Below, one piece after another: positions 20,391 to 27,229 of a stretch of DNA of 32,676 nt. The stretch is from Planctomycetaceae bacterium (GTDB taxonomy: Bacteria > Planctomycetota > Planctomycetia > Planctomycetales > Planctomycetaceae), in the NCBI GenBank assembly GCA_028284885.1, contig JANQQW010000056.1, positions 1 to 32,676 of the forward strand, in the 5' to 3' direction. The notes under the pieces were generated by a model. The model worked only from the letters and a program-made list of their open reading frames with translations. It was not told where the DNA came from and did not search any database. The position numbers and the translations under genes were made by a program. Each line of letters opens with the position of its first letter. The stretch's first letter is position 1.

Positions 20391-21914
20391 GTGATTCGAC
20401 TCTTGCCGCTGCTCGCCCTGCTCTTCGTCGGGAACGTCGCCCACGCCGCCGACGCCAAACCGAACATCGTGCTCGTCTACGCCGACGACCTCGGCTATGG
20501 AGACGTCTCCGCGTACGGGGCGACGCGGGTGAAGACGCCCTACATGGACCGGCTCGCGAAGGACGGTCTCCGCTTCACCGACGGCCACTCCCCCTCCGCC
20601 ACCTGCACGCCGTCGCGGTACGCCATGCTGACCGGCGAGTACGCGTGGCGGAGGAAGGGGACCGGCATCGCCCGCGGCGACGCAGCCGCCATCATCCAGC
20701 CGGGCCGCGTCACGCTCGCCTCGCTGCTGAAGCAGGCCGGCTACCACACGGCCGTCGTCGGCAAGTGGCACCTCGGACTGGGCGACGGCAACCTCGACTG
20801 GAACGGCAAGATCGCCCCCGGCCCGCTCGAAGTCGGCTTCGACTACTGCTACCTCGTCCCGGCCACCGGCGACCGCGTTCCCACGACCTACGTCGAGAAC
20901 CACGCCGTCGTCGGCCTGAACTCGAAGAAGGACGCCCCGCTCCGTGTCAGCTTCAAGGGGAAGATCGGCGACCTGCCGACCGGCAAGGACCGGCCCGACC
21001 TGCTGAAGATGCACCCCAGCCACGGGCACGACATGACGATCGTCAACGGCATCAGCCGCATCGGCTACATGGACGGCGGGCAGTCGGCGTGGTGGAAGGA
21101 CGAGGACATGGCCGACGTCCTCGCCAGCCAGGCGACCGCCTACATCGAGGAACGAGCCGAGCAGGACGACCCGTTCTTCCTGTTCTTCTCCGCCCACGAC
21201 ATCCACGTCCCTCGCGTGCCGCACGCGCGGTTCGTCGGCAAGACCCCCATGGGCCCCCGCGGCGACGCCATCGTCCAGTTCGACTGGTGCGTCGGCGAGA
21301 TCCTCAAGAAGCTCGACGAGCTCGACCTCACGGACGACACGCTGTTCCTCCTGACCAGCGACAACGGCCCCGTCATCGACGACGGCTACGAGGACGAGGC
21401 CGTCACGAAGCTCGGCGACCACGAGGCCGCCGGTCCGTGGCGTGGCGGCAAGTACTCGAACTTCGAGGGGGGCACGCGGGTGCCGTTCGTCGCCCACTGG
21501 CCCGGCACCGTCGAGCCGGGCGTCTCGGACGCGCTCGTCTGCCAGATCGACTTCCCGCACAGCCTGGCCCGCCTCGCCGGCGTGAAGACGTTCGCCGAGA
21601 CGGCCGTCCCGGACAGCGAGAACGTCCTCCCCGCCCTGCTCGGCCAGTCGAAGACCGGCCGCGAGACCCTCGTCGAACACGCCCGCGGCCTCTCCCTCCG
21701 CTGGGGCGACTGGAAGTACATCCCGCCCGGCAAGGGCCCGAAGGTCAACCGCAACACGAACACCGAACTCGGCATCGACCCCGCCGGCCAACTCTACAAC
21801 CTCGCCACCGACCCCGGCGAACGCAAGAACCTGATCAAGACGAACCCCGACAAGGCGCAAGCGATGGCCGCGGAGTTGCAGCGGATTCGCGAGGCGAAGC
21901 GGACGCGCGAGTAG
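20391..21914 (+). CDS. Secreted sulfatase 3 (arylsulfatase-like)
   Basis: A 507-residue exported sulfatase. The signal peptide MIRLLPLLALLFVGNVAHA is followed by KPNIVLVYADDLGYGDVSAYG. The formylglycine motif is CTPSRYAMLTG (Cys72). AVVGKWHLGLG, FFSAHDIHVPRVPH and LLTSDNGPVIDDGY are conserved metal and substrate blocks. The insert HPSHGHDMTIVNGISRIGYMDGG around residues 205-228 recurs, as I recall, in planctomycete sulfatases. The start is GTG with no clear Shine-Dalgarno sequence. It is divergent from sulfatase 2 and followed 5 bases after its stop by a short palindromic element. The substrate is unknown. Confidence 0.95.
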   Translation: MIRLLPLLALLFVGNVAHAADAKPNIVLVYADDLGYGDVSAYGATRVKTPYMDRLAKDGLRFTDGHSPSATCTPSRYAMLTGEYAWRRKGTGIARGDAAAIIQPGRVTLASLLKQAGYHTAVVGKWHLGLGDGNLDWNGKIAPGPLEVGFDYCYLVPATGDRVPTTYVENHAVVGLNSKKDAPLRVSFKGKIGDLPTGKDRPDLLKMHPSHGHDMTIVNGISRIGYMDGGQSAWWKDEDMADVLASQATAYIEERAEQDDPFFLFFSAHDIHVPRVPHARFVGKTPMGPRGDAIVQFDWCVGEILKKLDELDLTDDTLFLLTSDNGPVIDDGYEDEAVTKLGDHEAAGPWRGGKYSNFEGGTRVPFVAHWPGTVEPGVSDALVCQIDFPHSLARLAGVKTFAETAVPDSENVLPALLGQSKTGRETLVEHARGLSLRWGDWKYIPPGKGPKVNRNTNTELGIDPAGQLYNLATDPGERKNLIKTNPDKAQAMAAELQRIREAKRTRE

Positions 21915-21919
21915 TCAGG

Positions 21920-21985
21920 TAGGGTGGGCTTTGCCCACCGACCATCGCGGACACCTGTCACGCCTGGTGGACGCAGCCCACCCGA
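21920..21985. repeat. REPIN-like element after sulfatase 3
   Basis: The left arm (21920-21943) contains the perfect palindrome GGTGGGCTTTGCCCACC (21923-21939). The right arm (21962-21985) is its inverted relative, matching 17 of 24 positions and ending in AGCCCACCC. An 18-base spacer separates them. The TAGGGTGGGC...GCCCACC theme is a frequent bacterial interspersed repeat, from memory. No transposase is nearby. Confidence 0.8.
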
Positions 21986-22012
21986 CTTCACTCGTCATTC
22001 CGAGAAGAGCCC

Positions 22013-25165: not shown

Positions 25166-25708
25166 TCAGCCGGAACCGGGCGTGGGCCGTGTCAGCGTTT
25201 CGAAGTGTGACGGCAGCCGTGCGAGCGGGTGACCCTGCCGGTTTCGCCACGCGACCACGGCCGACGTGATCTCCGGCGTCCTCGACAGCAAGGCGTCACC
25301 GGCGGTGGCGACGAGCACGTTCGGCAGCAGCTCGGACAACTCGGCGGACGCAACTACCCGCTCCAGGTGCTCGGCGGCCGGCGTCTGGGGTTCGAGCGTG
25401 CACAGGGCGACCAATGCGACGGCCGGAGCCCGCCCACGACCGGCCGCACAGTGGACGAGCAGCCCGTCGACGTTCGTCAGGCGACCGATCCACTCGACGA
25501 GCGGCAACAGGTTCTCCGGACGCGGCGCGTCGGGATCGTCCGTGTCGTGCACGTCGGCGAATCGGAGAACCAAGTGGTCCGCGGCTGCCACCTCCGGCAG
25601 CCGCAACCCGGCCAAGTCGTCCCCGACGTCCCCGACGGAGATCATGTGACTGAACCCCCGTCCCTCGAACGCCGCGACCTCGTGACGACCACAGACCCGC
25701 AACTGCAT
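25166..25708 (-). CDS. Dual-specificity/tyrosine phosphatase-like protein
   Basis: A 180-residue protein with the cysteine phosphatase signature VHCAAGRGRAPAVAL: Cys87-x5-Arg93 (HCxxGxxR). Asp52 or Asp55 in FADVHDTDDPD upstream is a suitable general acid. The opening MQLRVCGRHEVAAFEGRGFSHMISVGD resembles the small bacterial group annotated as tyrosine protein phosphatases, related to plant and archaeal dual-specificity enzymes. The Ala after Arg-Gly-Arg, in place of the usual Ser/Thr, could slow phosphoenzyme hydrolysis. It is cytoplasmic and sits alone, convergent with the upstream secreted protein gene. Confidence 0.85.
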   Translation of the reverse strand: MQLRVCGRHEVAAFEGRGFSHMISVGDVGDDLAGLRLPEVAAADHLVLRFADVHDTDDPDAPRPENLLPLVEWIGRLTNVDGLLVHCAAGRGRAPAVALVALCTLEPQTPAAEHLERVVASAELSELLPNVLVATAGDALLSRTPEITSAVVAWRNRQGHPLARLPSHFETLTRPTPGSG

Positions 25709-25746: not shown

Positions 25747-25823
25747 CCGCGGTTCACGCTCCCGCCGGACGACGTTCGCGATTCCGTTCCGGTCGTCGAG
25801 TCAGGCGGGAGCCCGACCCGCGG
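25747..25823. repeat. REPIN-like element, copy A of the GCTCCCGCC family
   Basis: The left arm (25747-25770) and the inverted right arm (25800-25823) agree at 20 of 24 positions around the core GCTCCCGCC (25758-25766) / GGCGGGAGC (25804-25812). The spacer is 29 bases. It ends 4 bases from the stop of the TolB-like gene. Copy B, on the other side of that gene, has the same core, the same spacer length and a related spacer. Confidence 0.8.
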
Positions 25824-25827
25824 GCGT

Positions 25828-26772
25828 TCACTTCGGGGTCGCCTCGCCGTGCGGGTAGCGGTAGTCCGCATCGTCGTCGGTCGAAACCTGCTTCGTCGAC
25901 CCGTCGGCGAGCGCGTACAGGAACAGCTTTCGGCCGGCGTGGTAGACGATCGCCTTCTCGTCGGGAGTCCAGCGTGGGTAGGCGAACCAGACCGGCTTCC
26001 CCTCCTCGTTGGCGAACGGCTTCGCGTTCGTGACCGTTCGGGTCCGGGCGTCGAATTCGGCCACGTACAGCGTGCGGCCCGGCACACGACGCTCGAACCC
26101 CTTCGTGAACTCGAAGCAGATCCGTTTCTCGCTCGGCGAGAGGCTCACGCGGTCGAACGTGCCGGTCTTCGCCAGCGCACTCACGACCCGCTCGAACGTC
26201 GGCTCGCCGTCCCGGTTCGGCGTCATCAGGAAGTAGCCCGGCCCGTGCCCCGGCGGACGCGCTCCGACGAAGATGCGGCCGTCCTTCAGGCAGGTGAAGG
26301 CCCAAGCGTGGTAGTCAGGCCCGGTGAGGGCGTACTCCTCGCCCGGCTTGGCCCCCACCTTGCTGGCCATCACGGTGTAGCCTCCGCCGGCGGGCTTCTT
26401 GCGATTCCAGATCGGCGTGTTGGTCCCGTCCCGCGTCCAGGTCTGGTTGAAGTCGGTGTGGGACCCGTCGCTGAGCTGGTGGAAGCCGGTGCCGTCGACG
26501 TTGACCACGCAGATCGCCGTCTTCCACTGGCTGACGTCTCGGTGATCGACGACGCGGCGGAAGAAGACCAGCCGGTCGCCCGTCTTCGACCAGGACGGCT
26601 TGAAGTCCCAGTGCCCCGACGTCAACGGCTTCCCCTCCGGCGTGCCCAGCACGTTCACGTGGATCTCACCGTCCTTGAAGTAGGACGACCGGTACTCCTC
26701 CGCGGCGAGGTGGGCCGACGCGACGAGTACCGCGGCAGCGGCGAGCAGCCCCTCGGACAGCGTTCTTCGCAT
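25828..26772 (-). CDS. Secreted TolB-like (PD40) beta-propeller protein
   Basis: A 314-residue exported protein with a signal peptide (MRRTLSEGLLAAAAVLVASAHLAA). Repeated propeller blades are visible: DFKPSWSKTGDRLVFFRRV, TAICVVNVDGTGFHQLSDG, DFNQTWTRDGTNTPIW, RVSLSPSEKRICFEF, YPRWTPDEKAIVYHAG and LFLYALADGSTKQVS. These match the WSPDG-x(n)-hydrophobic pattern of PD40/TolB repeats. It likely binds protein or sugar ligands outside the cytoplasmic membrane. The ATG has a strong GAGGAGAG. It is bracketed by two copies of one short inverted-repeat family. Confidence 0.88.
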   Translation of the reverse strand: MRRTLSEGLLAAAAVLVASAHLAAEEYRSSYFKDGEIHVNVLGTPEGKPLTSGHWDFKPSWSKTGDRLVFFRRVVDHRDVSQWKTAICVVNVDGTGFHQLSDGSHTDFNQTWTRDGTNTPIWNRKKPAGGGYTVMASKVGAKPGEEYALTGPDYHAWAFTCLKDGRIFVGARPPGHGPGYFLMTPNRDGEPTFERVVSALAKTGTFDRVSLSPSEKRICFEFTKGFERRVPGRTLYVAEFDARTRTVTNAKPFANEEGKPVWFAYPRWTPDEKAIVYHAGRKLFLYALADGSTKQVSTDDDADYRYPHGEATPK

Positions 26773-26795
26773 GATCTCTCCTCTGGTTCCGTTTT

Positions 26796-26872
26796 GATGG
26801 AGCCAAGCTCCCGCCTGACGTCAGACACGATTCGGCCCCGCTTGGCGAGTCAGGCTGGAGTCAGGCCTATTG
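26796..26872. repeat. REPIN-like element, copy B of the GCTCCCGCC family
   Basis: GCTCCCGCCTGAC (26807-26819) faces GTCAGGCTGGAGT (26849-26861), matching at 11 of 13 positions, with a 29-base spacer. Spacer and left core resemble copy A at 25747-25823 (about 18 of 29 spacer bases agree). The outer arms have decayed. It ends 3 bases from the stop codon of the gene at 26876, and lies about 23 bases upstream of the TolB-like start codon. Confidence 0.65.
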
Positions 26873-26875
26873 GGG

Positions 26876-27229
26876 CTACGACAGGAAGAACGAGTCGTCG
26901 TCGAGAATGCTCTCGTCGTACACGAACTCCGCATGGCAGTCGCCGTCACACGTGAGCGTCAGCTCGAACTGGTACCGTTCCTCGGGGAACCACTCCTTCT
27001 TCGCCTCCCACATCTCCGCCACTTCGAATCGCAAGCGTGAGGGCATCGAGACCGACTCTCGCTCACCATGGGGTCCGAGACATCTCAGTTTCGACGCAAT
27101 GCCGCCACTCGAACGACCGCGGGCGGTGAAGGTGGCCTCCCTCCACGCGTTGGGTTCCTGCGAGGTCCTGACGACCACGAAGAGTTCGGCTGCGAACCCT
27201 CGAAGCCAATCGTTGAACTCTTCGATCAC
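26876..27229 (-). CDS. Small hypothetical protein, possibly immunity-like (YezG/DUF600-type)
   Basis: A 117-residue cytoplasmic protein. The ending ERYQFELTLTCDGDCHAEFVYDESILDDDSFFLS resembles the DG-x(n)-F-x-YD closing strand of the YezG/DUF600 immunity family, but the match is from memory and weak. The N-terminal half is a helix (MIEEFNDWLRGFAAELFVVV) followed by strands. The start is GTG with a poorly placed Shine-Dalgarno sequence, so an alternative start cannot be excluded. No toxin gene is adjacent. Orphan immunity genes of this kind are common accessory genes. Confidence 0.6.
   Translation of the reverse strand: MIEEFNDWLRGFAAELFVVVRTSQEPNAWREATFTARGRSSGGIASKLRCLGPHGERESVSMPSRLRFEVAEMWEAKKEWFPEERYQFELTLTCDGDCHAEFVYDESILDDDSFFLS

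Follow-up and report, generated by a model that had tools for sequence, protein, structure and literature searches.

REPINs are doublets of REP sequences in inverted orientation, with a less conserved spacer between them, which form hairpins (PMC3116915). REPs of the GTAG super-family, of which planctomycete members have already been described in R. baltica, often lie directly behind stop codons, the TAG of the tag being used as the stop (PMC3733652). From work on other bacteria, REPs are known to be mobilised by a RAYT, whose single-strand cleavage takes place at the GTAG tag and hairpin (PMC8266576), and repeat families do not correlate strictly with transposase genes (PMC3733652).

Analysis of a 32,676-nt stretch of Planctomycetaceae DNA (the window) revealed two elements, A (25749..25821) and B (26798..26870), situated on either side of a gene encoding a secreted propeller protein. 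In all likelihood these are two decayed REPINs, paired head-to-head, of a small GTAG-tagged family with the consensus GTAG-GTCRGGC-TCCY-GCCYGAC. The family shares with the GTAG REP super-family an unpaired GTAG beside a 7-bp stem with a 4-nt loop, intergenic siting, the use of TAG as a stop and head-to-head dimers 20-100 bp apart (PMC3733652), a likeness of structure rather than one drawn consensus by consensus with the 24 published consensuses; it differs in the tags of the two window copies, GCGG in A and TGGA and ATAG in B. With the REPINs GI-GIII of Pseudomonas fluorescens SBW25 (PMC3116915) it has in common inverted doublets, one long hairpin, a less conserved spacer and a similar size, but there are about ten copies as opposed to hundreds, and no linked RAYT was found for the A/B family. 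The kind of element is well known and the A/B family is a new, ordinary addition to it, apparently orphaned. For a phylum in which few such families have been described, the analysis supplies one more, small and well delimited, together with its consensus, copies and host range. The same genome carries several REP/RAYT pairs alongside this family, for which no mobiliser is visible. Both points are of use in annotation and in studying the persistence or decay of REPINs once the transposase is gone.

The A/B family in the genome and in relatives

An arm search followed by a search with a longer consensus, both over the whole genome holding the window (6.47 Mb in 399 contigs), gave a 22-nt tagged hairpin as the family unit. 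Counts of single arms were misleading, as the reversed control beat the real pattern at one mismatch, and the full 22-nt REP was used for this reason; at up to three mismatches it has 20 matches genome-wide and the reversed pattern has one. The REPs pair head-to-head with GTAG outside, mostly as dimers. Eight other dimers are near-intact; their spacers measure 24-61 bases and they are present on contigs C18, C61, C242, C313, C341, C377, C5 and C260, and in seven of these eight both REPs are within one mismatch of the consensus. The family is small, with about ten to twelve copies, and the near-intact and decayed copies lie on different contigs.

Within each REP the hairpin stem covaries, one position alternating between A-U and G-C in both REPs of the dimer, and none of 500 shuffles reached the covariation score. 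Nine of ten copies lie outside or abut predicted genes, the copy on C313 overlapping the ends of predicted ORFs. As in GTAG REPs, the consensus has its GTAG tag outside an imperfect palindrome, with a stem in the range of 5-13 bp and a short loop, and as in REPINs, inverted REPs within 20-100 bp of each other form a hairpin and are dispersed in the genome, mostly in intergenic DNA. The spacers of the copies are mostly unrelated, with a few weakly similar pairs.

Regarding relatives, the nearest of those compared belong to other genera. The relatives search found the REP at one mismatch in 12 of 78 other genomes, G015, G021 and G022 being rich in it; the reversed control matched once across all genomes of the search, in one that lacks the REP. 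A phylum-wide sample contained the REP in 2 of 391 other genomes, and six contigs with exact dimers are from Planctomycetaceae/Planctomycetota MAGs. These distributions show that the A/B REPIN family is real and that it occurs patchily, for the most part within the taxonomic family to which the window belongs. In three loci of one relative (G015; L064, L075 and L083) and two MAG loci (L114 and L118), the A/B-family copies share a conserved spacer, GCGAACGGTGATT...ATCGC; such sharing, unlike the situation in the window's genome, is a sign of what would be a more recent spread there. Another locus, L060 (G048:C576), has an A/B-family dimer without a spacer, which is a perfect 44-base palindrome.

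RAYT genes and the mobiliser

The genome has several genes encoding RAYT or TnpA-like (Y1) proteins, detected using Pfam Y1_Tnp, a RAYT model and a RAYT protein query; Y1_Tnp alone misses some of the RAYTs present here. At least three are bracketed by their own REP types. REPINs of GTAGGGTGGGCTTTGCCCACC surround the RAYT gene on C31, the RAYT gene at C380:59084-59521 (L178/L186) lies between 40-nt inverted repeats holding GTAGGGGCCGGACTCCGTGCCGGCCC, with a related dimer at L029, and the gene on C130 is surrounded by GGGTGGCGGGGTCAG repeats. These units resemble the A/B family in having GTAG-type or similar REPs, here around a RAYT gene, but their stems and loops are different, and none of their RAYTs is known to act on the A/B family. 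At L033 (C94), an IS200-like transposase is located between near-perfect inverted repeats, AGGGTCGCGACAAGCGGGAGCGCACCCT, and resembles the published TIR-flanked type.

No A/B-family REP was detected in the flanks of about 1.5 kb of the RAYT/Y1 loci fetched from the 399-contig assembly. The preliminary description had suggested dispersal by a RAYT-type transposase encoded elsewhere in the genome; Y1 RAYTs do exist there, but none of those fetched carries an A/B-family REP within that distance. Two candidates for a cognate gene in relatives were not convincing: a Y1 gene in G051 is flanked on both sides, at a distance of about 570 nt, by REPs with the same stem but another loop, with other repeats nearer to the gene, and a RAYT gene in G087 has related REPs at least about 850 nt away, beyond another gene. 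The A/B family is thus apparently orphaned, with no cognate transposase visible in this genome, and its RAYT may have been lost, may lie in an assembly gap or may have been replaced by action in trans. The lack of a flanking RAYT counts against the REPIN reading, as does the low copy number, but since transposase genes and repeat families are not strictly correlated (PMC3733652) it bears on the mobiliser and not on the type of repeat.

By analogy with described systems, the copies would be non-autonomous elements, each inserted after a RAYT (TnpA-REP, HUH/Y1) had acted on its GTAG tag and hairpin and moved it as a single strand. The RAYT of the A/B family would by now be lost, unassembled or unrecognised, with the copies mutating as inert remnants. 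It is also conceivable, though improbable, that the family is an orphan spread patchily over many planctomycete genera and sustained in trans by the RAYT of another family, inserting preferentially behind stop codons and with some copies kept as hairpins at mRNA ends.

Structure and membership of elements A and B

Element A, to which no strand is assigned, is an inverted pair of GTAG-type REPs with a 29-nt spacer (25771-25799). Its left REP (25749..25770, plus strand; GCGG-TTCACGC-TCCC-GCCGGAC) has five mismatches and its own stem is broken, while the right REP (25800..25821, minus strand; GCGG-GTCGGGC-TCCC-GCCTGAC) has two mismatches to the consensus and an intact 7-bp stem; among the REPs of A and B it is the only one to keep its stem. 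The tag GTAG is changed to GCGG at both ends of A, so the left end still pairs with the right end and the long hairpin is preserved. Element A forms a single long hairpin over its whole length (folding z -4.3/-4.1) and folds well on both strands. Element B, likewise without an assigned strand, is a strongly decayed inverted pair with a 29-nt spacer (26820-26848) and five to six mismatches per REP. The 3' half of its left REP (26798..26819, plus strand; TGGA-GCCAAGC-TCCC-GCCTGAC) is intact and the 5' half and tag are lost, the family's GTAG reading TGGA, and its right REP (26849..26870, minus strand; ATAG-GCCTGAC-TCCA-GCCTGAC) has five mismatches and the tag ATAG.

Direct reading of the sequence gives arms of GCTCCCGCCGGAC-29-GTCAGGCGGGAGC for A and GCTCCCGCCTGAC-29-GTCAGGCTGGAGT for B, so that 13-base arms frame the 29-base spacer in both. 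Most of what the preliminary description reported for the pair was confirmed or supported: the equal 77-base frames (25747-25823 and 26796-26872), the 29-base spacer and a spacer likeness of about 18 of 29 bases, which is exactly 18 of 29 and is reached by random pairs of 29-mers from the window at a frequency of 0.0005; and the membership of both elements in one dispersed family, borne out by the eight other near-intact copies. A and B are the top two inverted dimers of the window, far above a first-order Markov null. The proposed common pattern GCTCCCGCC...29...GGCGGGAGC fits A but not B, the right arm of which is GGCTGGAGT, and the core GCTCCCGCC, which does belong to the unit, is just a portion of the 22-nt tagged hairpin. 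A and B agree at 41/55 positions of the core and at 49/77 of the 77-base frame, and their longest exact run in common is 10 nt. Both units are palindromic, and the previously noted same orientation of A and B therefore rests on the spacer alone.

Membership was scored using a position-weight matrix trained on the other genome copies, with A and B left out. Among head-to-head dimers in the window (32.7 kb), A is best with 32.0 bits and B second with 10.1 bits, the maximum among 25 random windows (first-order Markov chain of the window) being -3.1 bits; the left REP of B on its own scores 1.2 bits. The covariance model R1 gave E=2.6e-7 for A and E=4.1e-5 for B in the window search, and 5e-5 for A and 0.008 (minus strand) or 0.17 (plus strand) for B genome-wide. 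An Rfam search of the window found one tRNA and nothing else. Judged from the matrix scores and E-values, A is certain to belong to the REPIN family and B, though decayed, very probably belongs to it. The genome-wide E-values of B (0.008-0.17) speak against the REPIN reading and, together with its number of mismatches per REP, are the argument for A alone being a REPIN; this is quite unlikely, since B is the second best dimer of the window, 13 bits over the best of the 25 random windows, and has a spacer equal in length and similar in sequence to that of A.

Stop codons and the propeller gene

Element A is located 6 nt behind the stop of the propeller gene (25828..26772, minus strand), an ORF encoding 314 aa, TolB/DPPIV-N-like and secreted, with a weak Pfam DPPIV_N match below the cut-off. 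A phosphatase-like gene (25166..25708, minus strand; ORF with a Pfam match below the cut-off) lies 40 nt beyond A. Element B is located 5 nt behind the stop of a small gene (26876..27229, minus strand; ORF of 117 aa with no Pfam match) and lies 25 nt before the ATG of the propeller gene. Six of ten copies in this genome are within 10 nt of a stop codon, with gene ends taken from ORFs and a codon-position filter and not from annotation, and in the C18 copy the TAG of its GTAG serves as the stop codon.

Being a strong hairpin just 3' of the propeller-gene stop, A may affect the end of that mRNA. Another explanation would make A and B native hairpins of the genes on either side, acting in transcription end or mRNA stability, that simply resemble each other. 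This would account for the distance of 5-6 nt from stop codons in both and for the good folding of A on either strand; it is very unlikely, given that no terminator-like site was found in the region and that sequence, beyond the hairpin alone, is shared with copies that follow unrelated genes and with copies in other genera.

Recombination between A and B had been put forward as a means of deleting the propeller gene. Efficient recombination is unlikely with 10 or fewer identical bases in a row. As A and B share at most 10 such bases, an efficient deletion of the propeller gene by this route is unlikely, and it was rejected as a likely explanation, the orientation of the elements and the orthologs adding no support. 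A search of 60 other family genomes gave orthologs of the propeller gene, with 63-70% identity, in four, and no REP of the A/B family was present in the surrounding DNA examined for these four, from which the tested window neighbours were absent too.

That A and B arose by local direct duplication and form a composite unit, which carries the propeller gene and can be lost or moved by recombination between them, is very unlikely: the equal 29-nt spacers with 18 of 29 bases identical in the same orientation and the patchiness of the gene in relatives (4 of 60 others) would agree with it, but spacer relatedness of A and B (z 3.2) does not exceed that of the unlinked copies C242-C260 (5.5) and C313-C260 (4.3), the longest identical run is 10 nt, neither the gene together with both elements elsewhere nor long identical ends were found, and the orthologs in relatives share neither nearby A/B-family REPs nor the tested neighbours. 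The bracketing is more simply explained by what would be two independent insertion events, A having entered the gap on one side of the propeller gene and B the gap on the other, in each case right after a stop codon. Knowledge of the propeller gene itself is unchanged by the REPIN finding.

Other repeats were also observed. A second REPIN family in this genome, of about 82 nt (GTACGACGGGCACTCCTGCCCGTC ... GGACGGGCAGGAGTGCCCGTCCTAC) and with a conserved spacer, is found at loci L136-L142 and L144 on contigs C205, C276, C22, C336, C33, C18 and C28; conservation extends into the flanks of at least four copies, which suggests a unit of about 150 nt. The window contains a REPIN-like element of yet another family at 21919-21986 (GTAGGGTGGGCTTTGCCCACC ... 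TGGTGGACGCAGCCCACCCGAC), which lies 4 nt past the stop codon of the ORF 20391-21914 and the REP of which also surrounds the RAYT gene on C31.
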